43,566 nucleotides of DNA from a virus. The stretch covers positions 1 to 43,566 of IMG/VR virus record IMGVR_UViG_3300050821_003198. One strand, written 5' to 3'. Below, piece after piece: positions 5,565 to 43,566 of this stretch; within the stretch, counting starts at the first letter, position 1; each line of letters starts with the position of its first letter. A program made the position numbers and the translations under genes. Under the pieces are notes generated by a model. It was given only the letters and a program-made list of their open reading frames with translations. It searched no databases and was not told where the DNA came from.

Positions 5565-5846
5565 ATGAGCGAATACCAAACCGAACCAATCCCCAAAACT
5601 GAACAGGAGTTTATTAACTACCGCCTGGATCAGGACGACCGCCAAATCAACAATGTCTCCGATGACGTCCATAGCCTAGCTAAAACTATGGATAACGAGT
5701 TCGCCACCAAGCAGCAAATCAACGACGGTTTCGCTTTAGTCAATACGAAACTTAACTTTCAAAACAAACTGATTTATGGAATAATCAGTTTAATCGGCAT
5801 GATCATGACGGGCATACTGGTTGGTAGATTAATCAATAAACTATGA
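5565..5846 (+). CDS. XhlA-like coiled-coil protein with C-terminal membrane span
   Basis: The 93-residue product has a polar helical region rich in Gln/Asn/Asp (about residues 10-68, heptad-like) and ends in one membrane span, LIYGIISLIGMIMTGILVG (about 69-87). This layout resembles XhlA-type haemolysin/lysis accessory proteins, which associate with holins at the membrane. The neighbouring gene is another membrane peptide whose ATG overlaps this stop, consistent with a small membrane-active pair. The family call is by architecture only. No lysin lies next to it; the lysin is at 19911-21395. Confidence 0.55.
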   Translation: MSEYQTEPIPKTEQEFINYRLDQDDRQINNVSDDVHSLAKTMDNEFATKQQINDGFALVNTKLNFQNKLIYGIISLIGMIMTGILVGRLINKL

Positions 5847-5947
5847 GACAAAAAATAGGCAACACTCCTAAAATCTTTTTATTTATTTTAGTGCTTTGCT
5901 TTTTGCTCGCCATCAGCATAAGTGTTGATATATATTTTTTTAAGTAA
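5843..5947 (+). CDS. 34-residue membrane micropeptide
   Basis: It encodes MRQKIGNTPKIFLFILVLCF followed by more hydrophobic residues and the tail YFFK: a basic N-terminus and one span of about 20 residues. The ATGA overlap with the XhlA-like gene indicates coupled translation. A holin-like or antiholin-like role is possible but not shown. Confidence 0.55.
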   Translation: MRQKIGNTPKIFLFILVLCFLLAISISVDIYFFK

Positions 5948-5971
5948 TATTTTCGTAACATTCCTCCGGAC

Positions 5972-6394
5972 TTATGGATGGGGCCTTAAAGCTATATAAA
6001 TACTGACTACCGCGGCGATGGCGCTAATAAGCGTTAGTCCGGCTAGGCCTACCGCCAGCAAAATAGAGAAAGTTTTGCTTATACCGGTATCGCGCCCCGT
6101 ATCGGTATCACTAGTAGTTCGTAATTCACTGATCTGTTTTGACAAATCCTTAAAAGCTGCCTCAGCTTCTGGCCGTGGCATAAAGTTGCGCTCTCGATCG
6201 TTCATAGCGCCGCGCCATTCATTACTGGCCTTACGCCAACTTTCAATTTCTACGGCAGACTTATTAACTGCCTTTTCCGCTGAGGCCAGAGCAGCGGCGA
6301 CGGCCGCTTGCTGATCAGCGAACCGACGATCAACGTAATCCTTAAACCAGCGAAAACATTTATCTATGTATTGTTTTAGTGTTATCTCACCCAT
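5972..6394 (-). CDS. Coiled-coil membrane protein of a common phage family
   Basis: The 140-residue protein begins with LKQYIDKCFRWFKDYVDRRF. A long Ala/Glu/Lys coiled coil follows (AAVAAALASAEKAVNKSAVE), then NEWRGAMNDRERNFMPRPEAEA and a C-terminal membrane span (FSILLAVGLAGLTLISAIAA, about residues 108-133). Proteins with this exact layout recur widely in siphoviruses, often near lysis or tail genes; their role is not firmly known. It shares an operon with the 53-residue gene upstream and converges on the 34-residue membrane gene with a 24-base gap. Confidence 0.7.
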   Translation of the reverse strand: MGEITLKQYIDKCFRWFKDYVDRRFADQQAAVAAALASAEKAVNKSAVEIESWRKASNEWRGAMNDRERNFMPRPEAEAAFKDLSKQISELRTTSDTDTGRDTGISKTFSILLAVGLAGLTLISAIAAVVSIYIALRPHP

Positions 6395-6676: not shown

Positions 6677-6937
6677 TCATACATACCCCCGCTCCTCCAT
6701 ATCAGCTTGGTCGATCTCTGACTCTATTACTCGCACTAACTTTTCAACCGGCCATTCCAGCGCGTTAGTCTCGATCGGCACGTTGATATGCCGCTGGTTT
6801 TTATGGTCGCAGACAATAATTACCTGGTTGCCCTCGTCCAGCACGATCAGATCGACATGTACCTCCTTCGGTAAATAGCCGCGAGCGCTAAAGACATCTG
6901 ATATAGCCTGCTGCAACTGCTCGTGATCTAGCTTCAT
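6677..6937 (-). CDS. Hypothetical protein, 86 residues
   Basis: The start is ATG 6937, overlapping the upstream stop (TGATG) and placed six bases after GGAGG; a GTG one codon earlier is too close to that site. The product has an alternating beta/alpha look (EVHVDLIVLDEGNQVIIVCD, then VEKLVRVIESEIDQADMEER), suggesting a small compact alpha/beta fold. It is the last gene of the large accessory operon. Function unknown. Confidence 0.65.
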   Translation of the reverse strand: MKLDHEQLQQAISDVFSARGYLPKEVHVDLIVLDEGNQVIIVCDHKNQRHINVPIETNALEWPVEKLVRVIESEIDQADMEERGYV

Positions 6938-7320
6938 CACTTACCTCCAAAGCCCGGCACGGTGGCTGGTACATTAGACTGTGGCAAAGTCGGTAGAGTT
7001 TGAGGCATTGGAGTGCTCTGAGGCTGACAAATCGCTACACCAGTTGTGGGATCAAAGCCCAATAAGGTGTCAGTCTGGTTCGGGCATTTATCGGCGCAGC
7101 GACCGGTCGTATCAAATGGCGGCGCGGTCGGGCAGTCACCTTGACCTTTACCATTGCACTGGCCTATCGTACAGCTCTCACAGCTACCACCGGGATAGCC
7201 TTGGCAGCCCGGCACGACTATAGTGTCGGCGTGTACCGGCGCGGTGGCATAGCTAACAAAGCCGTACAAGCCAGCGCCAATAAGTACCACCATCGCCCAA
7301 ATTATAATTAATGTTTTCAT
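6937..7320 (-). CDS. Secreted or membrane-anchored 8-cysteine protein
   Basis: The 127-residue product has an N-terminal signal/anchor (MKTLIIIWAMVVLIGAGLYG) with a possible signal peptidase site at VHA-DT (about residue 31). The exported part has eight cysteines in about 65 residues (PGCQGYPGGSCESCTIGQC, then DC, RCADKC and IC), enough for four disulfides, followed by a Pro/Gln-rich tail. Exported Cys-rich proteins are unusual in phages; possible roles are superinfection exclusion, a cell-surface inhibitor or a host-modifying protein. None is demonstrated. It overlaps both neighbours by one to four bases within the accessory operon. Confidence 0.7.
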   Translation of the reverse strand: MKTLIIIWAMVVLIGAGLYGFVSYATAPVHADTIVVPGCQGYPGGSCESCTIGQCNGKGQGDCPTAPPFDTTGRCADKCPNQTDTLLGFDPTTGVAICQPQSTPMPQTLPTLPQSNVPATVPGFGGK

Positions 7321-7463
7321 TCGTTACCTCCTTGTTTAACCTTCCCACACCGCTTACATATTTTTTTACGGGGATAGGCTCGCCGTTTCCAACCTTTCAG
7401 TTCTTTAATTAGTAAGTCAATCAAAAGCTGATTAGCTTCACGGTAAGTTAGTTTTTTACCCAT
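7317..7463 (-). CDS. 48-residue basic peptide with CxxC
   Basis: It encodes MGKKLTYREANQLLIDLLIK followed by a basic stretch and CKRCGKVKQGGNE. The CxxC is half of a zinc ribbon and may dimerise or bind metal with a partner. ATGA-type overlap with the next gene and overlap with the previous stop mark it as translated within the operon. Function unknown. Confidence 0.6.
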   Translation of the reverse strand: MGKKLTYREANQLLIDLLIKELKGWKRRAYPRKKICKRCGKVKQGGNE

Positions 7464-7651
7464 TATTTTTTAACCTTCTTCTCTGGTTTATTTGCCCACG
7501 AACGCAAGGCTACTAATCCATATAGAGAGCATTTTTTATTAAGACAACTAGCAAACTCCGAAGAGTCATAGCTTCTATCTGTTCGAAGTGTCATCACGTA
7601 AGGCACTAACTGTACCGCCTCGCCACATTTTATACAATATCTAGGTTTCAT
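7463..7651 (-). CDS. Zinc-ribbon protein, 62 residues
   Basis: CIKCG near the N-terminus (residues 6-10) and C-x4-C (CLNKKC) about 30 residues later form a complete four-Cys zinc knuckle, followed by a Lys-rich tail. Such small zinc ribbons often bind nucleic acids or inhibit host enzymes. Its start overlaps the previous stop (TAATG), and its own stop overlaps the 48-residue peptide gene. Confidence 0.65.
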   Translation of the reverse strand: MKPRYCIKCGEAVQLVPYVMTLRTDRSYDSSEFASCLNKKCSLYGLVALRSWANKPEKKVKK

Positions 7652-8034
7652 TATTTCCCACCTTTAGCTTTAAGGTCATGCCTGCGGGCCTTCTCGCAGG
7701 TCTTAGCCTCGTCTATACGGCCCTGTAAGTACGCCTCATCACAGCTTTGCTGGAGGAGGGTTAGGAGTTGGTCTGCTAAAGTATTAAAACCGTCCTTAGT
7801 AAGCTTAATTTCGTAGTCTACAATACCACCCTGAAGCCTGGTCTCGGTAGTTTCATGAGGCTTAAATTGGTCTAGTATCTGCTCTACAGCCTCTCGTTGT
7901 ATACTATCTTTATGAGCAACGGAACTATGACTGGAGTCTGACTTATGGACACTGAGATTATCCAGTGATGTTATACTATTACTAGTTTCCGGTGCAGCGT
8001 GTTTATCCCTAAGCTCTACAGTCTTGTGTTTCAT
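7651..8034 (-). CDS. Hypothetical protein, 127 residues
   Basis: The N-terminal 45 residues are polar and Ser-rich and probably disordered. The C-terminal half is helical (IQREAVEQILDQFKPHETTE, then GFNTLADQLLTLLQQSCDEA) and charged. I do not recognise a family. It overlaps the zinc-ribbon gene by one base and the upstream gene by four bases. Confidence 0.6.
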   Translation of the reverse strand: MKHKTVELRDKHAAPETSNSITSLDNLSVHKSDSSHSSVAHKDSIQREAVEQILDQFKPHETTETRLQGGIVDYEIKLTKDGFNTLADQLLTLLQQSCDEAYLQGRIDEAKTCEKARRHDLKAKGGK

Positions 8035-8270
8035 GGTTTAATTTTCCAACTATCAACTTCAGCTTTTGATTGAGGTAAGCCAACATATCCAAAATGCCTA
8101 CCAGTTAAGTGCCAAAGCTCATAATCAATAGCATTTCGGTCTACTACAATAGCTCCCTCGTAAAAACCTTGGGCGTTTCGGTATCGTTCAACAGGGGTAG
8201 CTTGATAGTAAAGTCTTGCAAGTATTTTTATGGCAAGCTCTAATTCGTCATCAGTGTTTTTTAAGCTCAT
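8031..8270 (-). CDS. Hypothetical protein, 79 residues
   Basis: The product has a helical N-terminus (DELELAIKILARLYYQATPV) and an aromatic-rich C-terminal half (FYEGAIVVDRNAIDYELWHL). No family recognised. Its stop overlaps the next ATG by four bases, placing it firmly within the accessory operon. Confidence 0.6.
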   Translation of the reverse strand: MSLKNTDDELELAIKILARLYYQATPVERYRNAQGFYEGAIVVDRNAIDYELWHLTGRHFGYVGLPQSKAEVDSWKIKP

Positions 8271-8273
8271 ACT

Positions 8274-8492
8274 TTACTGTTCCTTTCTTTGGGGGTTAGG
8301 TTGAGCTGTTGCCAAGTCGTTTACTATCTCACAGAGCAACACTAATACATCAGTCACACCGGCTGGCTGGCCATTCAGATATAATTCGGGGAGGAGCTTA
8401 GTAGGGTCGGAGGTTCGCTTAACTACAAAATCAATTATCTTCCCCTCAGTATTGTGGTGGTCAATCATGGATAGTGTACTCATAGTTATCAT
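8274..8492 (-). CDS. Hypothetical protein, 72 residues
   Basis: The start at ATG 8492 is supported by GGGAG four bases upstream; internal ATGs at 8483 and 8468 are alternatives. The protein ends in a helical stretch (VTDVLVLLCEIVNDLATAQ) and a polar tail. It overlaps the upstream gene by 32 bases in another frame. Function unknown. Confidence 0.55.
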   Translation of the reverse strand: MITMSTLSMIDHHNTEGKIIDFVVKRTSDPTKLLPELYLNGQPAGVTDVLVLLCEIVNDLATAQPNPQRKEQ

Positions 8493-8676
8493 TTAGCTCC
8501 CATTCGCCAATCTGTATATATAGAGGTGTATAGCTTCCCGGTTCTTGCTCTGCTGTTGGCAAAGGCTTCAGCGGATATACTTCCCCAGTCTGCCCAAGCC
8601 AGCCTACCTGAGCCATTACAGCCTTACTTTCGGGTCGCATAGGTTCTCCCTGAATTGACATGCTTAATTTACTCAT
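8461..8676 (-). CDS. Hypothetical protein, 71 residues
   Basis: The start has a good ribosome binding site (GGGAG, six bases upstream) that is part of a repeated intergenic sequence shared with 9295-9311. The protein is Pro- and aromatic-rich (VGWLGQTGEVYPLKPLP, then YTPLYIQIGEWELNDNYEYT), suggesting a small beta-rich domain. No family recognised. Confidence 0.6.
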   Translation of the reverse strand: MSKLSMSIQGEPMRPESKAVMAQVGWLGQTGEVYPLKPLPTAEQEPGSYTPLYIQIGEWELNDNYEYTIHD

Positions 8677-8682
8677 CTATCT

Positions 8683-8699
8683 CTCCCTTCTGGCTTATT
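8683..8699 (-). repeat. Cassette-boundary repeat A, copy 1
   Basis: This 17-base sequence recurs exactly at 9295-9311. Here it supplies the stop region of one gene and the ribosome binding site of the next; in the other copy it is partly coding. It marks the 3' boundary of two gene cassettes that share ends but not cores. Confidence 0.8.
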
Positions 8700-8955
8700 T
8701 GTCATAAATCCCCCTTATAACTAACCATTCACCATCTTGTTTAACCTGTAAATCTTTACCTTCTCGCTTAAAAAAATCAACACCACCCCATAACATACCT
8801 TCACTTATAGTTTGTCCCGGCCATAACGGAACGCCATTACAGCGTGTAGCTTTAAGAACTTCATAGGTAACGGGCGTTATTGAACCTACCTTTTTGAATA
8901 TATCCCAAAAACTAACCCTAATCTTTCTTGGCTTACTATAAGTAGAGGGGTTCAT
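8695..8955 (-). CDS. Hypothetical protein, 86 residues, STYSKPRK N-terminus
   Basis: The N-terminus MNPSTYSKPRKIRVSFWDIF shares the octapeptide STYSKPRK with the 103-residue protein at 9279-9590, through a 25-base DNA repeat. The rest is unrelated: GSITPVTYEVLKATRCNGVP, then a short beta-rich tail. The common basic N-terminus may be a shared targeting or binding tag, or simply a recombination seam. Its ATG overlaps the stop of the 45-residue gene upstream. Confidence 0.6.
   Translation of the reverse strand: MNPSTYSKPRKIRVSFWDIFKKVGSITPVTYEVLKATRCNGVPLWPGQTISEGMLWGGVDFFKREGKDLQVKQDGEWLVIRGIYDK
8924..8948 (-). repeat. Cassette-boundary repeat B, copy 1
   Basis: This exact 25-base sequence recurs at 9562-9586. 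It encodes STYSKPRK just after the start codon of each cassette gene and marks the 5' boundary of the exchanged unit. Confidence 0.85.
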
Positions 8956-9089
8956 GCTTCGCCTAACTTTTTTAGGATTGATAGAACTCTCTGCTTGCTA
9001 GCTACAAACTTAAATCCATTACCACAATCGGCATCATTTAATAATTTGACTAGTAGCTCTATATCTTCTTTTGTTAGCGCAACTCTCAT
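8952..9089 (-). CDS. 45-residue helical peptide
   Basis: The frame from ATG 9089 begins MRVALTKEDIELLVKLLNDA and ends SILKKLGEA, essentially two amphipathic helices. Its stop overlaps the next ATG (ATGA), the usual pattern in this operon. Function unknown; a small protein-protein interaction module is likely. Confidence 0.5.
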   Translation of the reverse strand: MRVALTKEDIELLVKLLNDADCGNGFKFVASKQRVLSILKKLGEA

Positions 9090-9124
9090 CGCTTATTCTC
9101 CCCTTCTCGGATTGTGTTGGGTGG

Positions 9125-9286
9125 TCATGGCCTCGTCCAAGTTTTTATTATCTTAATCGTCCAACTAGCTTTTGAAAGTCTAAGCTTACGCAGAAGCTTG
9201 TCATACCATCGTAATCCACGAGCCAAAGTATATGCAGAATAGTCTTCTCCTCTAGCCATATCAACGCCCATAAAGTATTTACTCAT
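9125..9286 (-). CDS. 53-residue protein, RNase H-like strand motif
   Basis: It begins MSKYFMGVDMARGEDYSAYT. The GVDxxxGxDxxA pattern is the first strand of RNase H-fold enzymes (terminase nuclease, Holliday-junction resolvase, actin-like ATPases), but the protein ends far too soon to be a full enzyme. The rest is a basic helix and strand. It could be a decoy, a broken remnant or a short conserved phage family. It overlaps the upstream gene by eight bases. Confidence 0.5.
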   Translation of the reverse strand: MSKYFMGVDMARGEDYSAYTLARGLRWYDKLLRKLRLSKASWTIKIIKTWTRP

Positions 9287-9590
9287 TTGTCAATCTCCCT
9301 TCTGGCTTATTAGTGGTGTTCTCGGTAATTGCAATGATAGCTTCTGCAAGATGATTATTTACAACAGATTGGTAGCTTGAACGCCAATCATTAGCGTGAC
9401 CATCTTCAATAAGTTTAGCTCCACAAATACACTGTAACTCAGATTTATATTGGCCGAGGTTAAGGTTAGCTTTAATCCAGTGTCTTCCCAATTCCCCACG
9501 CAGCTTATCGACTTGGTTGCCACCTACTGAGGCAGTATCACTTTGCTTGTCTAATCCGCCCTTTCTTGGCTTACTATAAGTAGAGGTCAT
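9279..9590 (-). CDS. Hypothetical protein, 103 residues, STYSKPRK N-terminus
   Basis: It shares STYSKPRK with the 86-residue protein at 8695-8955 and is otherwise different. The middle has CICGAKL, a possible metal-binding pair (about residues 54-60), followed by HANDWRSSYQSVVNNHLAEA and a helical end. The final residues are read through repeat A, which is non-coding in the other cassette. Its ATG overlaps the upstream stop. Confidence 0.6.
   Translation of the reverse strand: MTSTYSKPRKGGLDKQSDTASVGGNQVDKLRGELGRHWIKANLNLGQYKSELQCICGAKLIEDGHANDWRSSYQSVVNNHLAEAIIAITENTTNKPEGRLTNE
9295..9311 (-). repeat. Cassette-boundary repeat A, copy 2
   Basis: Exact copy of 8683-8699. Here it encodes the last residues (NKPEGR) of the 103-residue protein and also carries the ribosome binding site of the 53-residue gene. 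Confidence 0.8.
9562..9586 (-). repeat. Cassette-boundary repeat B, copy 2
   Basis: Exact copy of 8924-8948, encoding STYSKPRK at the start of the 103-residue protein. Confidence 0.85.
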
Positions 9591-10210
9591 AGCTTAAACA
9601 CCTTCACCATTAAATCAGATAGGCGGTCTAGGGCTTCCGTATTCATGGCTAGAGCCTCGGTATTAGCCTGGATTGACGCCACTTCAGAGGTAATGCTTGC
9701 ATGATTATCCGTGTCAGAAGATAAAGAAGAAACATCAGAAGAAGTGGAAAACTCAGAAGGTAAAGCGTCAACCACCACTGCGGGGCAGACACGGAGACCC
9801 CGGCCGCCGCCGTCAGGGTAGTCGATGTCCCGGTTCACCTGGCCCCCGCGGATGAAACGGATCTGCACGTGGCCGCCTGCCGTTAATGGTTCACCTGTTA
9901 GCATGGCCCATAGCCAATAACCATCCTCTTTGGGGTCAGGGCTGTAGGGTAGAGGGTCTATCTTCTCTTGCTGGCAATAGTCTATAAAAGCGTCGAATAA
10001 ATCGCTGGTCATGGCCTTACGGGTGTCTATACGCTTATTACCTACCCTAATTTCGTAGTCTTTCCTAGGGGCATTCATCACGTCGTTATACGAACCCTTG
10101 TATAGGCCTCGGTGCATGATAGCCGTCTTATCTTTATATGGAAAAACGAATATCTCGCCGGGGAACTTCTTTTGTAGGGCTGCCTTGTAAGCCTTAATTG
10201 ATGGGTTCAT
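9587..10210 (-). CDS. 207-residue protein with GC-rich C-type-lectin-like patch
   Basis: The N-terminal 95 residues are an unrecognised alpha/beta domain (FPGEIFVFPYKDKTAIMHRG). Residues about 98-147 (YWLWAMLTGEPLTAGGHVQI, then RGGQVNRDIDYPDGGGRGLR and VCPAVVV) recall the end of C-type-lectin/FGE-sulfatase folds, where RGG...GLRV closes the domain. This part alone is about 72 percent GC (9781-9880), far above its neighbours, suggesting separate origin. A Ser-rich linker and a short coiled coil (NTEALAMNTEALDRLSDL) follow. A displayed or ligand-binding role is possible; no signal peptide is present. The fold assignment is tentative. Confidence 0.6.
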   Translation of the reverse strand: MNPSIKAYKAALQKKFPGEIFVFPYKDKTAIMHRGLYKGSYNDVMNAPRKDYEIRVGNKRIDTRKAMTSDLFDAFIDYCQQEKIDPLPYSPDPKEDGYWLWAMLTGEPLTAGGHVQIRFIRGGQVNRDIDYPDGGGRGLRVCPAVVVDALPSEFSTSSDVSSLSSDTDNHASITSEVASIQANTEALAMNTEALDRLSDLMVKVFKL

Positions 10211-10332
10211 TCTTTACTCCCTATGTTTAAGTAGATATAGCTAACTTCCGGCTCGTTAAAAGTATCCTGGTAAGCTGGTATACCCTGGTCTAGGGTCTTA
10301 GCTAGGTTCATTAGATTACAAAAATCACACAT
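10207..10332 (-). CDS. 41-residue peptide with N-terminal CxxC
   Basis: It begins MCDFCNLMNLAKTLDQGIPA and ends IYLNIGSKE. The CxxC at residues 2-5 could bind metal or be redox-active. The ATG overlaps the preceding stop and its own stop overlaps the next ATG (ATGA). Function unknown. Confidence 0.5.
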   Translation of the reverse strand: MCDFCNLMNLAKTLDQGIPAYQDTFNEPEVSYIYLNIGSKE

Positions 10333-13697: not shown

Positions 13698-14147
13698 TTA
13701 GCTGTATAAAAATCGTAACGTTTCGCGCTGCACCCGGCTTGGATCACGCCACAAACGAGTAGCATCTATGTGCATAATGCGCCAGCCTCGTTGGTACAAG
13801 TAGCTGTCACGATCAAACTCGGCTACTATATCCCGATGCCAATGCGCTCCGTCTATTTCAAAGCCCCAATGAATATCGTTGCCTAGGTCGATCCAGTAAC
13901 GGCCAGCCCTGACCTCCCTACGGAACTTTTCCGAACGTAAGATTTTGCCATACCGCCAATAAATAGTTAGGGGGAAGCCAGTGCGCCAATGCTTGATCTT
14001 TTTAACGCCGTAAACTTTGCCGCCCATCAATTCAATAAATCTAACCTCTGCGGGCGAAGAAAATATTAGGCGTATATGTCTGCGCCATAATGCTCGCAAG
14101 TTATAGAACTTAAACCGCAGCAGCTTGTGCCTGTTTATTCCGAGCAT
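13698..14147 (-). CDS. DUF559/Vsr-like restriction-fold endonuclease
   Basis: The 149-residue product has the PD-(D/E)XK-type core of small DUF559/Vsr-like nucleases. After a basic N-terminus come RYWIDLGNDIHWGFEIDGAH, where the Asp and Glu/Asp are candidate catalytic residues, then WHRDIVAEFDRDSYLYQRGW and RIMHIDATRLWRDP. Such enzymes nick or cut DNA and occur in phages as accessory or homing nucleases. Its start overlaps the HNH gene by 38 bases in another frame, an unusually deep overlap between two nuclease genes. A better start may lie a little inside. Confidence 0.72.
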   Translation of the reverse strand: MLGINRHKLLRFKFYNLRALWRRHIRLIFSSPAEVRFIELMGGKVYGVKKIKHWRTGFPLTIYWRYGKILRSEKFRREVRAGRYWIDLGNDIHWGFEIDGAHWHRDIVAEFDRDSYLYQRGWRIMHIDATRLWRDPSRVQRETLRFLYS

Positions 14148-14637
14148 ATTTACCTACATCCCTTAAATGTTGACACATCAGACATCGCCTACTATATCCA
14201 GGCTTATTAGAATTTACCCTCATGCGCGTATTCTCAGGAGTAAACTCATGTCCATATTTGCAGTGAGTCTTATTGCGATTCATAAGTATCGCTCCTGTAA
14301 TGCCACCCGTAACCTCAATTCCTCGCCTAATATTTTCTAATCTTGTGGTAGGCTCTAAATGGTTTGGATTTACACAGGCACGATTGCGACATAGGTGATC
14401 AATATCAAGTTCTGGGGGTACTTTTTCTATAAGCACTTCATATAGAACTCTGTGAGCATACAAATTATTAACTTGTCCATTTAGCTTACCTACAAAAAAT
14501 ATGCCATATCCACCTTGAGTTTTTGCTGCCACCCAAACTAAACACTCGTCACTAATTTCAATCTTGTCCCAAAACCGCTGCGGAAGTTCAGTGAGCGGAC
14601 AAGGTTTACGGATGTCTTTAATGGTACGTTTGCCCAT
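14110..14637 (-). CDS. HNH endonuclease
   Basis: From ATG 14637 the protein has 175 residues; a TTG at 14655 would add six. LYAHRVLYEVLIEKVPPELD, then IDHLCRNRACVNPNHLEPTT, is a classical phage HNH motif (H...DHLC...N..H), and a C-terminal CKYGHEFTP and CLMCQ add a zinc-binding tail. This class is common among free-standing homing nucleases. It is preceded by an A/T-rich box (TACTATATAT) very close to the ATG. It is followed by the overlapping DUF559-like nuclease. Confidence 0.82.
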   Translation of the reverse strand: MGKRTIKDIRKPCPLTELPQRFWDKIEISDECLVWVAAKTQGGYGIFFVGKLNGQVNNLYAHRVLYEVLIEKVPPELDIDHLCRNRACVNPNHLEPTTRLENIRRGIEVTGGITGAILMNRNKTHCKYGHEFTPENTRMRVNSNKPGYSRRCLMCQHLRDVGKYARNKQAQAAAV

Positions 14638-14679
14638 ATATATATAGTATCCCAAAAAACCTGTTGATAACTTGCTAAT

Positions 14680-14863: not shown

Positions 14864-15235
14864 ATGGCGGACGTAGAGGAAGTAATTAAAAGAGATGCCG
14901 AGAAGGCTGTCATACTACAGAACAATCTTGTTGAAGCAACGCAGGAAATTAAGGCACTACAAGATAAAGTTGACTCAGCCTGGCGACAAGTCGAAGCGCT
15001 TATGATCGAGAAAGACATCAAGAGCATTAAGAGCGACAAATGGGGTAGCGTAACTATTGCTGAAAAGTTAGGTTGGACTACCACTGACGAGCTGCCCAGC
15101 AAGTTTTATAAGAAGGTCGTTGATCTTAAAAGATTATCTGACACGTTTAGGCTGGAGGGCAAAGCTCCCAAAGGCGCAGAACCGAAGTATACTAAATATC
15201 TAACTAAGAGGTTGAAACAATGGCCGACGCAGTAG
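14864..15235 (+). CDS. Gp157-like coiled-coil protein
   Basis: The start is ATG 14864, preceded by GAGG; the frame is open back to 14825. The 123-residue product has a long N-terminal coiled coil (about residues 1-50) and a C-terminal domain beginning IKSIKSDKWGSVTIAEKLGW, then LPSKFYKKVVDLKRL. That layout recalls the siphovirus Gp157 family, which commonly precedes recT and exonuclease genes as here. The similarity is by pattern only. Overlap with recT is 16 bases. Confidence 0.6.
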   Translation: MADVEEVIKRDAEKAVILQNNLVEATQEIKALQDKVDSAWRQVEALMIEKDIKSIKSDKWGSVTIAEKLGWTTTDELPSKFYKKVVDLKRLSDTFRLEGKAPKGAEPKYTKYLTKRLKQWPTQ

Positions 15236-16188
15236 CAACTACCAACACCCAAGCTAACCCAGTAGTTCAGTTTATCCGGGCTGACAAAATGCAAAAGATG
15301 GTACAGGAGCGCCTAGGTAAGCGGGCAGGGCAGTTCACCACCAGCTTAATTAGCCTGGTCAACACCAATGCCAATATCGCAGCCTGTACGCCTATGACGG
15401 TTATCCAGGCCGCTCTAACGGCTGCCAGCATGGACTTACCGATCAATCAGAACCTAGGCTTTGCCTACATCGTGCCTTATAAAAATCATGGTCGCATGGA
15501 GGCACAGTTCCAAATGGGCTGGCGCGGATTTGTGCAATTGGCTCAACGCTCTGGAAAGTTTAAGACCATTAACACTACTGACGTACGAGAGGGCGAGGTT
15601 AAGACCCGAGATCGTATGACTGGCGAGCTAGAGTTTGCTTGGCTGCCGGATGATAAGCGTGAAGCGGCACCTGTCGTTGGCTACCTGGCCTACTTCGAGC
15701 TGCTTAACGGATTTAAGAAGTCTCTGTATATGACCAAGGTTGAGATCGAGGCGCACGCTGGCCGCTACTCTCAAGCTTATAAAGCTCGTGGTAAGGGTGG
15801 CTTTAAGTCACCTTGGGAAACCGACTTTGGTTTAATGGCCCAGAAAACATCTCTTAAATTGTTGCTGTCAAAATTCGCACCACTTAGCACCGAAATGCAG
15901 GAAGCTATCCAAGCTGAACAGTCCGTTGATGATGGCACTGGTCGTAACTACATAGATAACGACGACCTGTCCGATGTCCACGCTGATGAGGATAAGAAAA
16001 AAGCTATTGTGGCTGCTAACAAGCCAGCTGCTCCGGAAGCTGAAACTGCCATTGAGTCCGGTAGTGATGAGGCTTCTGAACCACCGGCAGCACCAAAGCC
16101 TAAAAAGTCCGTCAAGGATATGGTAGCCGAGCGTGGGTGGGATGGTAAAGGGAAGCAAGCGAGTTTGGTAGATGATAAAGATTCATGA
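15220..16188 (+). CDS. recT: RecT-family single-strand annealing protein
   Basis: RecT anneals complementary single strands made by the partner exonuclease, for phage recombination and concatemer formation. The 322-residue product carries MTVIQAALTAASMDLPINQN, then FAYIVPYKNHGRMEAQFQMG, WRGFVQLAQRSGKFKTI and later MAQKTSLKLLLSKFAPLS, the order and motifs of RecT. The last 80 residues are an acidic and Pro-rich tail, usual for variable C-termini that contact partners. The start has GAGG seven bases upstream. It overlaps the exonuclease gene by 17 bases. Confidence 0.93.
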   Translation: MADAVATTNTQANPVVQFIRADKMQKMVQERLGKRAGQFTTSLISLVNTNANIAACTPMTVIQAALTAASMDLPINQNLGFAYIVPYKNHGRMEAQFQMGWRGFVQLAQRSGKFKTINTTDVREGEVKTRDRMTGELEFAWLPDDKREAAPVVGYLAYFELLNGFKKSLYMTKVEIEAHAGRYSQAYKARGKGGFKSPWETDFGLMAQKTSLKLLLSKFAPLSTEMQEAIQAEQSVDDGTGRNYIDNDDLSDVHADEDKKKAIVAANKPAAPEAETAIESGSDEASEPPAAPKPKKSVKDMVAERGWDGKGKQASLVDDKDS

Positions 16189-16714
16189 ATGCGAGCAGGG
16201 TTCGGAGCAGTGGCATGAACTACGAACCGGCAAGTTTACTGGTACAGCCGCAGCCAAATTACTTAAACATGGAGCTATCGATTACAGCCTTACCGAGCGT
16301 AGTAACTTCAGAGGTAATTGGTACACTAAACGCGGGCATGAGCTTGAGCCGGAGGCTTTAGAGCTGTATGAGCTTATTACAAAGACTATGGTGGGTCGTC
16401 CTGGTTTCGTTACTAATAATCTATACCCTGATTGCGGTTATAGTCCTGATGGCTTGGTTGAGGGAAAAGTTATCGAGGTAAAATGTTTTATGGAAGATAA
16501 GCACAAGCAGCTTTATAATGGCGATATACCGTTCGAGGTGCTAGCCCAAATACACTTTGGCATGATGATCTGTGAGCGTAAAGCTGCCGATCTGATTATC
16601 TATAACCCCGAACTGGAGCCTAAGCTAGCCTTTAAGATCATACCCATCAAAGCTAGTCGAGGCATAGTTAGTAACTTTAAGAGGATATTAAAGCCGCAGG
16701 GAGTAGCAGCATGA
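16172..16714 (+). CDS. YqaJ-type (lambda-exonuclease-like) recombination nuclease
   Basis: This 5'-3' double-strand exonuclease would supply single strands to RecT. The 180-residue product has SEQWHELRTGKFTGTAAAKL at the N-terminus, RGHELEPEALELYE (about 54-67) and the catalytic GYSPDGLVEGKVIEVKC (D about 93, E about 102, K about 104), followed by a helix with Q (VLAQIHFGMMIC). All key motifs of the family are present. Overlap with recT indicates co-translation of the annealing/exonuclease pair. Confidence 0.92.
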   Translation: MIKIHECEQGSEQWHELRTGKFTGTAAAKLLKHGAIDYSLTERSNFRGNWYTKRGHELEPEALELYELITKTMVGRPGFVTNNLYPDCGYSPDGLVEGKVIEVKCFMEDKHKQLYNGDIPFEVLAQIHFGMMICERKAADLIIYNPELEPKLAFKIIPIKASRGIVSNFKRILKPQGVAA

Positions 16715-16989: not shown

Positions 16990-17231
16990 AAAGCGAACTT
17001 ATACTACGCAAATACAAAATGAATACCAACACCAATGTGATTATTAAATCCAAGAAAATGAAGGACGCTAATGTGTACATTAACACCTTGACGCTCGAGT
17101 TTACTACCAGTGATATTAACCCATTAAAACTAGATACTCGGTCAGCCATTCAAAACTACATTGATAATATTGAAATGGAAGACGAGCAGCAAGACTTATT
17201 TGAAGGTGCAGAGGAGGCACAAGTAGTATGA
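16986..17231 (+). CDS. Hypothetical protein, 81 residues
   Basis: The product has a beta-rich core (NTNVIIKSKKMKDANVYINT, then LTLEFTTSD) and ends in a strongly acidic tail (NIEMEDEQQDLFEGAEEAQV) that could mimic DNA or bind a partner such as a clamp; QQDLFE resembles a beta-clamp-binding peptide (QxxLF). That motif is worth noting but short. The start ATG 16986 overlaps the preceding stop. Confidence 0.6.
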   Translation: MKSELILRKYKMNTNTNVIIKSKKMKDANVYINTLTLEFTTSDINPLKLDTRSAIQNYIDNIEMEDEQQDLFEGAEEAQVV

Positions 17232-34721: not shown

Positions 34722-35315
34722 TTAGTTCAACCCAAATATTAACAGCTGTTGCAGCGTAATTGTATTACTAGAGCTGGAAGCGCTACATGCAACATTGAAA
34801 TTTATATAATTTGTAATCGAGGTATCGAGCGTAGTGGCTGTACCTGGCGAGGCCGCGCCGCCCCAAACAGGGTTAATGCCTGAGTTAGTGCCGGTTAAGC
34901 CTGGGCTGGTGATTAGACCTATGCCTTGGAATGAACTGTTAGCGCCAGCGGCACCCATAGCGGTAAGAGTAATATCTCCCTCAAGCTCGAATATCTGGTT
35001 CGAAGCGCCTGAAGCCGTTGTTAGCGCGGCACTGCCTAGCAAGATAGCCGCACTGGTATTACCTGCCGTACCACCACGAACAGTAAATGTATAAGTCGGC
35101 GTACCGGTCGAACTCAGGATACCTCTAGCGACAATCCTAATTGTTCGTCCATCGGAACCGTGGTTAGGGAGCCAAAAGTCAGGCGGTAAGTGATACTGTA
35201 CGCCCATACCGGCCGTATCGTTAATTTGAACTTCACTGGTAAAGCTAGCTTTGGCTGTGCCAGCGGCTATGCTCGAGTAAACTAGTTCGGTGTTAGTGCC
35301 TGTTAAAAAGCTCAT
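34722..35315 (-). CDS. Beta-sandwich virion protein, 197 residues
   Basis: The product (SSIAAGTAKASFTSEVQIND, FWLPNHGSDGRTIRIVARGI, then YTFTVRGGTAGNTSAAILLG and FELEGDITLTAMGA) has the repeated strand pattern of a jelly-roll widely found near capsid genes of siphoviruses. It is likely a head decoration or fibre protein. It overlaps the upstream 81-residue gene by four bases. Confidence 0.6.
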   Translation of the reverse strand: MSFLTGTNTELVYSSIAAGTAKASFTSEVQINDTAGMGVQYHLPPDFWLPNHGSDGRTIRIVARGILSSTGTPTYTFTVRGGTAGNTSAAILLGSAALTTASGASNQIFELEGDITLTAMGAAGANSSFQGIGLITSPGLTGTNSGINPVWGGAASPGTATTLDTSITNYINFNVACSASSSSNTITLQQLLIFGLN

Positions 35316-35557
35316 ACTTGTGCCTCCTCTGCTGGAACTACGATTTGTTGAGCAGAATCGGGTGCGGTAGTCGTGCCACCACCTATAGCCGTTATACGAG
35401 CCGTTATAGCTGCATCAAGGTCAGCTTCAGTCGTAGCGCTTTGAGGCACGCTAATAGTCTCGTCATAAACTTCACTGCCAACAAGCATACGAGCGCGAGC
35501 TTGCATATTACCTTGTTCGTCAGGTAGTTGCCAGAGAGTAGTGTAGGTGTTCTGCAT
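35312..35557 (-). CDS. Hypothetical protein, 81 residues
   Basis: The short product (TTLWQLPDEQGNMQARARML, then SATTEADLDAAITARITAIG) has a beta hairpin and one helix. It starts one base after the upstream stop and overlaps the next gene, so it belongs to the structural operon. Function unknown. Confidence 0.6.
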   Translation of the reverse strand: MQNTYTTLWQLPDEQGNMQARARMLVGSEVYDETISVPQSATTEADLDAAITARITAIGGGTTTAPDSAQQIVVPAEEAQV

Positions 35558-43131: not shown

Positions 43132-43566
43132 TTACGCCCCTACTAGTCGCATCAGTTTTTGCTGGGCTTGTTTGGCTTGGGCGATAGCTTCCGTAGCATT
43201 AGCGGGTGGTTTGGGTGCTGGTTGCGGCGGTTGAGGTTGACCTAGTGGCACCGGAGCGTTTGGGTCTGGCGCTGGTAATGTGCCACCAATCGGAGGAACA
43301 CCCGCCACAGTAATCTTTTCAGCTTCAGCCTTAGCGGCAATGTTTTTATCGTAAGCTTCGTAATCTTCTTCGGTTAACTCAGGCATATTGAGCATTCGTC
43401 TAAAGCGGTTTTCACTATCACGATCAGGGTGAACAGCACCGGCGCTCATCAACATTTGCACGGCCTTAGAAACTTCGGTTACATCCTCGTCGCTAATAGT
43501 GCTGTGCTTAAGCTTAGGGTAGCCATTTGGCAGATTAGAATAGTTGAGGTCAACCCATCTGTTAGC
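43132..43566 (-). CDS. Portal protein, C-terminal part (continues from base 1)
   Basis: This is the C-terminal end of the portal gene that starts at 1073. It reads in frame from base 1 to 43537 (the last 29 bases of the window repeat bases 1-29). The segment contains the helix KAVQMLMSAGAVHPDRDSEN, RFRRMLNMPELTEEDYEA, and a Pro/Ala-rich end. It stops one base before the minor head gene start. The Pro-rich tail (PVPLGQPQPPQPAPKPPANA) is probably disordered. Confidence 0.88.
   Translation of the reverse strand, partial: ANRWVDLNYSNLPNGYPKLKHSTISDEDVTEVSKAVQMLMSAGAVHPDRDSENRFRRMLNMPELTEEDYEAYDKNIAAKAEAEKITVAGVPPIGGTLPAPDPNAPVPLGQPQPPQPAPKPPANATEAIAQAKQAQQKLMRLVGA
43538..43566. repeat. Terminal direct repeat, right copy
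   Basis: Identical to bases 1-29, inside the portal gene; see the left copy. Confidence 0.95.

Follow-up and report, generated by a model that had tools for sequence, protein, structure and literature searches.

Genes 67 and 68 of the mycobacteriophages Island3 and Brujita end in a common 3′ stretch of approximately 50–60 bp, and in LRRHood and Cali 29-bp direct repeats lie around four extra genes (PMC3029335). Conserved boundary sequences were proposed to mediate the mosaicism of lambdoid phages and are cited as such in the same paper (PMC3029335). The SAS/ESAS sequences of Cluster K mycobacteriophages follow one 13-bp consensus present in many copies, with 93 sites listed across the cluster (PMC3203893). 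Regarding length, the minimal efficient pairing segment is 23–27 bp for Red-beta versus 31–34 bp for RecA (PMC3945230), and T4 recombination occurs at microhomology of 6–10 bp (PMC9391042). Here we describe a phage accessory operon in which two small genes, designated X1 and X2, are probably recombinants (we give this a probability of about 0.6), in which case the operon would have been assembled from unrelated cores joined at short shared gene-boundary DNA (approximately 18–61 bp).

The window, meaning the whole stretch of DNA analysed, is a viral contig of 43,566 bp from an unclassified phage whose source is environmental DNA only. An identical 29-nt terminal repeat was found at positions 1–29 and 43538–43566; the contig therefore probably represents an entire tailed-phage genome, either circular or terminally redundant. 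The structural genes included terminase, Mu-like head genes, tape measure, and major head protein, and other genes encoded a DnaD-like helicase loader, a ParB-like protein, and an HNH protein. On the plus strand, positions 15220–16188 encode a RecT single-strand annealing protein (Pfam PF03837, E = 1.9e-42; phrog_148, E = 5.6e-71) and positions 16172–16714 its partner, a YqaJ/RecE-like exonuclease (Pfam PF09588, E = 6.9e-11; phrog_149/434). Pfam and PHROGs thus agree on an annealing protein and exonuclease pair. Among the ORFs scanned, which were part of all ORFs in the window, there was no integrase, transposase, or reverse transcriptase, and no recombinase besides RecT/YqaJ. At 13698–14655, an overlapping pair of genes encodes a DUF559/MTES_1575-like nuclease and an HNH endonuclease; their relatives in another phage, G008, are widely separated.

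The repeats, termed seams below, sit in a minus-strand operon of small genes with unassigned function. In the direction of transcription, the order was X2 (9279–9590, 103 aa), Y2 (9125–9286, 53 aa, MSKYFMGVDM...), a 45-aa ORF (8953–9090, start at 9089, MRVALTKEDIELL...), X1 (8695–8955, 86 aa), and Y1 (8461–8676, 71 aa, MSKLSM...). By direct reading, the 45-aa ORF lies between both X-Y units and has its own ribosome-binding site. X2 consists of seam A, seam C, and its own core, and ends in seam B; X1 consists of seam A and an unrelated core, with its stop in seam B. Y2 begins MGVDMARGEDYSAY and what follows looks different from that start; it may be the truncated remainder of a larger protein.

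Seam A is an exact direct repeat at the starts of X1 (copy 1, 8923–8948) and X2 (copy 2, 9561–9586; CCTCTACTTATAGTAAGCCAAGAAAG, encoding the (P/T)STYSKPRK region), both copies on the minus strand. The first-pass annotation had given its length as 25 bases, correct to within one base, the repeat being 26 nt long. The common N-terminal STYSKPRK that it had reported was also confirmed: the two proteins begin MNPSTYSKPRK... and MTSTYSKPRK..., in the same frame, and the codons for these eight residues are identical in X1 and X2, synonymous positions included. Seam A begins just past the start codon; a ribosome-binding site for X1 or X2 is absent from it, and the sequences upstream of the X1 and X2 starts differ (p = 0.62). 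The genome has two exact copies. As a control for chance, dinucleotide shuffles were made of the genome (30) and of positions 7601–10300 (200). The longest exact repeat in the shuffles was 17 nt genome-wide, with the 29-nt terminal repeat set aside, and 15 nt at 7601–10300, against the 26 nt observed. The repeats are real and far above chance. A false joint made at the 26-bp repeat during assembly was considered and judged unlikely, because the repeat is shorter than the k-mers usually employed by metagenome assemblers.

Seam B joins the end of each X gene to the beginning of the Y gene that follows. Copy 1 (8667–8702, minus strand) contains the stop of X1 and the ribosome-binding site and first codons of Y1; copy 2 (9277–9314, minus strand) contains the end of X2 and the ribosome-binding site and first codons of Y2. 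The exact part, previously taken as 17 bases, is 18 nt (8682–8699 and 9294–9311), and with one 2-nt gap the self-match extends to 38 columns at 86.8% identity (9314–9277 and 8702–8667), spanning the Shine-Dalgarno sequence (AGAAGGGAG) and continuing into ATG-AGT-AAA (MSK) of the downstream gene. This repeat had been described as coding in one unit and as following the stop in the other. It is indeed coding in X2 (NKPEGR, in another frame); in X1 it overlaps the stop, the TAA at 8695–8697 falling inside the seam. The idea that the ribosome-binding site stays in the seam also needs correction: seam B has one, serving the next gene (8461–8676 or 9125–9286), and seam A has none. Because the copies are read in different frames, seam B is repeated DNA and not a protein motif. 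Only two exact copies were present, and a search for the seam B core with up to 3 mismatches gave 5 near matches, both seam copies counted among them, versus 1.2 expected. Treatment of seams A and B as one repeated element was dropped, with p = 0.02 in two of three comparisons and 0.40 in the third, uncorrected. The seams showed no unusual RNA folding (z from -0.2 to +1.5) and no Rfam match.

A third seam, absent from the first-pass annotation, adjoins copy 2 of seam A. Seam C (61 bp, 9504–9564, minus strand) matched the phage contig IMGVR_UViG_3300037200_000043 (hereafter G001) by blastn (E = 2e-23), with 58 of 61 positions identical (95%) at 1454–1514 of the latter. The counterpart in G001 sits inside a 271-aa gene that is unlike X2 outside that stretch. 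G001 is a distant phage, its RecT being 29% identical, and there was no terminase match between the two; the flanks of seam C in the two phages had no sequence in common. All three differences are nonsynonymous, with no synonymous difference in approximately 20 codons, which argues for recent sharing or transfer of DNA and not for peptide selection or protein conservation. G001 has a second, diverged copy at 2036–2096, 580 bp downstream of the first, identical to the window at 41 of 61 positions and to the first G001 copy at 39 of 61; the best control values were 30 elsewhere in the G001 locus and 33 in shuffled sequence. This second copy straddles the junction between the 271-aa gene and the gene after it, and its 3′ half is in another frame. 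The 271-aa gene had no relatives but itself.

We also compared 119 related sequences all against all, looking for short patches (35–150 bp, at least 90% identical) that stand alone between pairs with no other alignment. Three were found, seam C being the strongest and the only one without a family explanation. For another, situated within a YopX-like gene of G001, we take conserved protein sequence to be the likely reason. At 5700–6150 of G001 there is also a protein with tandem five-residue repeats (A[ND]L[GR][SY]), pentapeptide-repeat-like.

Searches for relatives of the locus itself gave little beyond seam C. Cassette DNA had no relatives in phage and plasmid records, nor did cassette proteins in phage records, where a single match at E = 0.8 was taken as chance. 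X2 had no Pfam, PHROG, or phage relatives, and X1 none in Pfam, PHROG, phage records, or IMG/VR protein searches. An exact 24-nt stretch of seam A was present in no other IMG/VR viral contig, and in the IMG/VR searches (protein and exact seam A) only seam C recurred elsewhere. No matching seam pair was found in 1.5 Mb of related sequences. Terminase relatives came from phages at 55–79% identity, and their accessory regions had none of these operon genes. Among these relatives, none of which has the locus, there was no empty site, single unit, one-cassette deletion, or different core between the seams. One contig, IMGVR_UViG_3300021170_000103, is 99.95% identical over 4342 nt and stops before reaching the locus, at window position 7041. 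The 79% relative lacks window positions 5.3–15.5 kb, and both ends of its contig fall there.

Between the seams, the cores were not detectably related, in line with the first-pass annotation. Local alignment of the X1 core with the X2 core gave p = 0.38 for DNA and p = 0.91 for protein against shuffles, and that of Y1 with Y2 past the first codons gave p = 0.998 and p = 0.94, respectively. There is accordingly a sharp step, at or near gene boundaries, from 26/26 nt identity to cores without detectable similarity. Single-sequence structure models of the cores, both of low confidence, were mostly strands for one (mean pLDDT 68) and mostly helices for the other (pLDDT 51); the better model (pLDDT 68) had no confident match in PDB.

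We infer exchange solely from the anatomy of the locus, as follows. Unrelated coding cores would have been joined at short DNA stretches shared at gene boundaries, with ends annealing or switching template at the repeats during phage replication. RecT is a candidate agent of such recombination, and the phage's own RecT with the YqaJ-like exonuclease would be the most likely one. Seam A, at 26 bp, lies within the range given above for Red-beta (23–27 bp), and the 18-bp exact part of seam B lies below it. Read directly, a crossover that recombined the two copies of seam A would preserve the frame, and one at seam B would bring the upstream gene to a stop after no more than a few codons, with the ribosome-binding site of the next gene retained. 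With the frame maintained by seam A and that ribosome-binding site supplied by seam B, a crossover at either seam should be tolerated; it would leave a translatable operon, its products would survive selection, and the joints would for this reason be located where they are found. Dedicated cassette machinery would be unnecessary. The original proposal is partly supported: DNA repeats at gene junctions, unrelated cores, seam C in G001, and the RecT/YqaJ pair favor recombination at the seams, and a dedicated system is not supported.

The alternative that survives best, although unlikely, is an old tandem duplication of the X-Y unit, in which one core was replaced or both became too divergent to recognize while the gene starts remained under selection. 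The X-Y order is the same in both units and the spacing is similar (638 and 612 nt), as a duplication would give. However, the identity of seam A is 26/26, third codon positions included, beside cores without detectable similarity; the seam B copies are in different frames; the 45-aa ORF and seam C occur in one unit only; and the core models, low in confidence as they are, differ. Because the cores lack detectable similarity in DNA or protein, a simple tandem duplication of entire genes that then diverged uniformly, which the first-pass annotation had set against its own proposal, is a poor fit and is disfavored. Duplication followed by core replacement may have occurred and merges with the explanation by recombination.

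The repeats might otherwise be functional start-associated sequences that bind a translational regulator or are required for initiation, as has been proposed for the SAS of Cluster K mycobacteriophages, and are kept similar by that function. We regard this as decidedly unlikely. Every repeated stretch is at a gene start, and when the gene-start contexts of the window were compared in 2016 pairs, the top three by similarity all fell within the operon. The third of these, a weaker pair on the minus strand, joins the starts of genes 9587–10210 (10195–10230) and 6937–7320 (7305–7339), with 80.6% identity over 36 columns. It was tried as a mark of the operon's uniqueness and dropped, since scores of at least 20 occurred in 15 of 56 sequences; in the same control set, the top score was at least 24 in five, the window being counted in both figures. 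Some of the high-scoring controls were unrelated genes with a common start region (in the sequences L111 and L011), and others were protein repeats or host DNA. Since control sequences score high too, shared start regions are not rare in phages, and the combination of the long exact seam A with seam B is among the stronger cases. In L111, four small genes with minus-strand starts at 278, 1393, 1643, and 1872 have a start context around TATGTAAAGGGAAA before the ATG; their proteins look unrelated, and the arrangement resembles start-associated sequences. The fourth-best start-context pair in the window was an 18-nt perfect inverted pair (17208–17225 and 35315–35332, GCAGAGGAGGCACAAGTA) in the ribosome-binding region at gene starts on opposite strands. 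The unrelated genes with similar starts elsewhere, such as those in L111, would suit a start-associated function. Against it, seams A and B have only two copies each and differ in sequence (A versus B, p = 0.02, uncorrected for several comparisons), seam A lies after the start codon without a ribosome-binding site, and the folding and Rfam results given above were unremarkable.

That STYSKPRK is a short functional peptide, such as a targeting or binding tag under protein-level selection, is highly improbable: the same eight residues do occur in the same frame in both genes, but their codons are identical at synonymous positions too, and seam B is shared as DNA in different frames. Least probable of all is a dedicated system, with reserved seams, for cassette exchange or diversification, as the two seams, the third one common to another phage, and the frame-preserving crossovers read directly at seams A and B might suggest, for RecT/YqaJ was the only recombinase among the ORFs scanned, no other contig had exact seam A, seam C peptide patterns occurred in one IMG/VR contig and in none of 84,980 genomes, and seams A and B have two copies each and form no array.

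If X1 and X2 are recombinants, the operon offers a sequence-level snapshot of small-gene gain, in which the start region and the ribosome-binding site of the next gene were kept and the core is new. A broader idea, which we consider very unlikely, is that the seams circulate as exchangeable linkers between the phages of a single host group and serve as standing recombination sites for orphan accessory genes. Just as doubtful is its corollary that pieces like seam C recur across phages, genes, and frames, with translation signals kept during swaps. Were such pieces to recur widely, isolated near-identical patches of 25–70 bp between unrelated genomes would map recent exchanges of orphan genes. 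As it stands, the locus is one further example of an accepted process.

Compared with known systems, the locus differs from integrons, which have an integrase and inverted-repeat cassette sites; here the ORFs scanned contained no integrase, and the seams fold ordinarily. It also differs from a diversity-generating retroelement: the ORFs scanned included no reverse transcriptase, the repeat copies match exactly, and the cores are unrelated rather than adenine-substituted. Seam B is like SAS in being a repeat with a ribosome-binding site just upstream of unrelated non-structural gene starts; in contrast to one consensus in many copies, this operon has two different sequences, each present twice, and one of these follows the start codon. 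The boundary sequences proposed for lambdoid phages are similar short conserved gene-boundary stretches serving as sites of module exchange, although they are shared between genomes, whereas seams A and B are so far found only within one genome. Relaxed recombination of the RecT/Rad52-like type has been described in temperate phages (PMC3945230), and the RecT and YqaJ/RecE-type exonuclease predicted here would be of the same kind. Closest are Island3/Brujita and LRRHood/Cali, which likewise have short direct repeats at gene ends beside unrelated accessory genes and for which general recombination, and no dedicated system, was proposed. A single-copy relative is known there, whereas none was found here; the present locus has two paired seams per unit and a third shared with another phage. 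The structure looks like a mosaic scar, a further case of known phage mosaicism at short boundary repeats.
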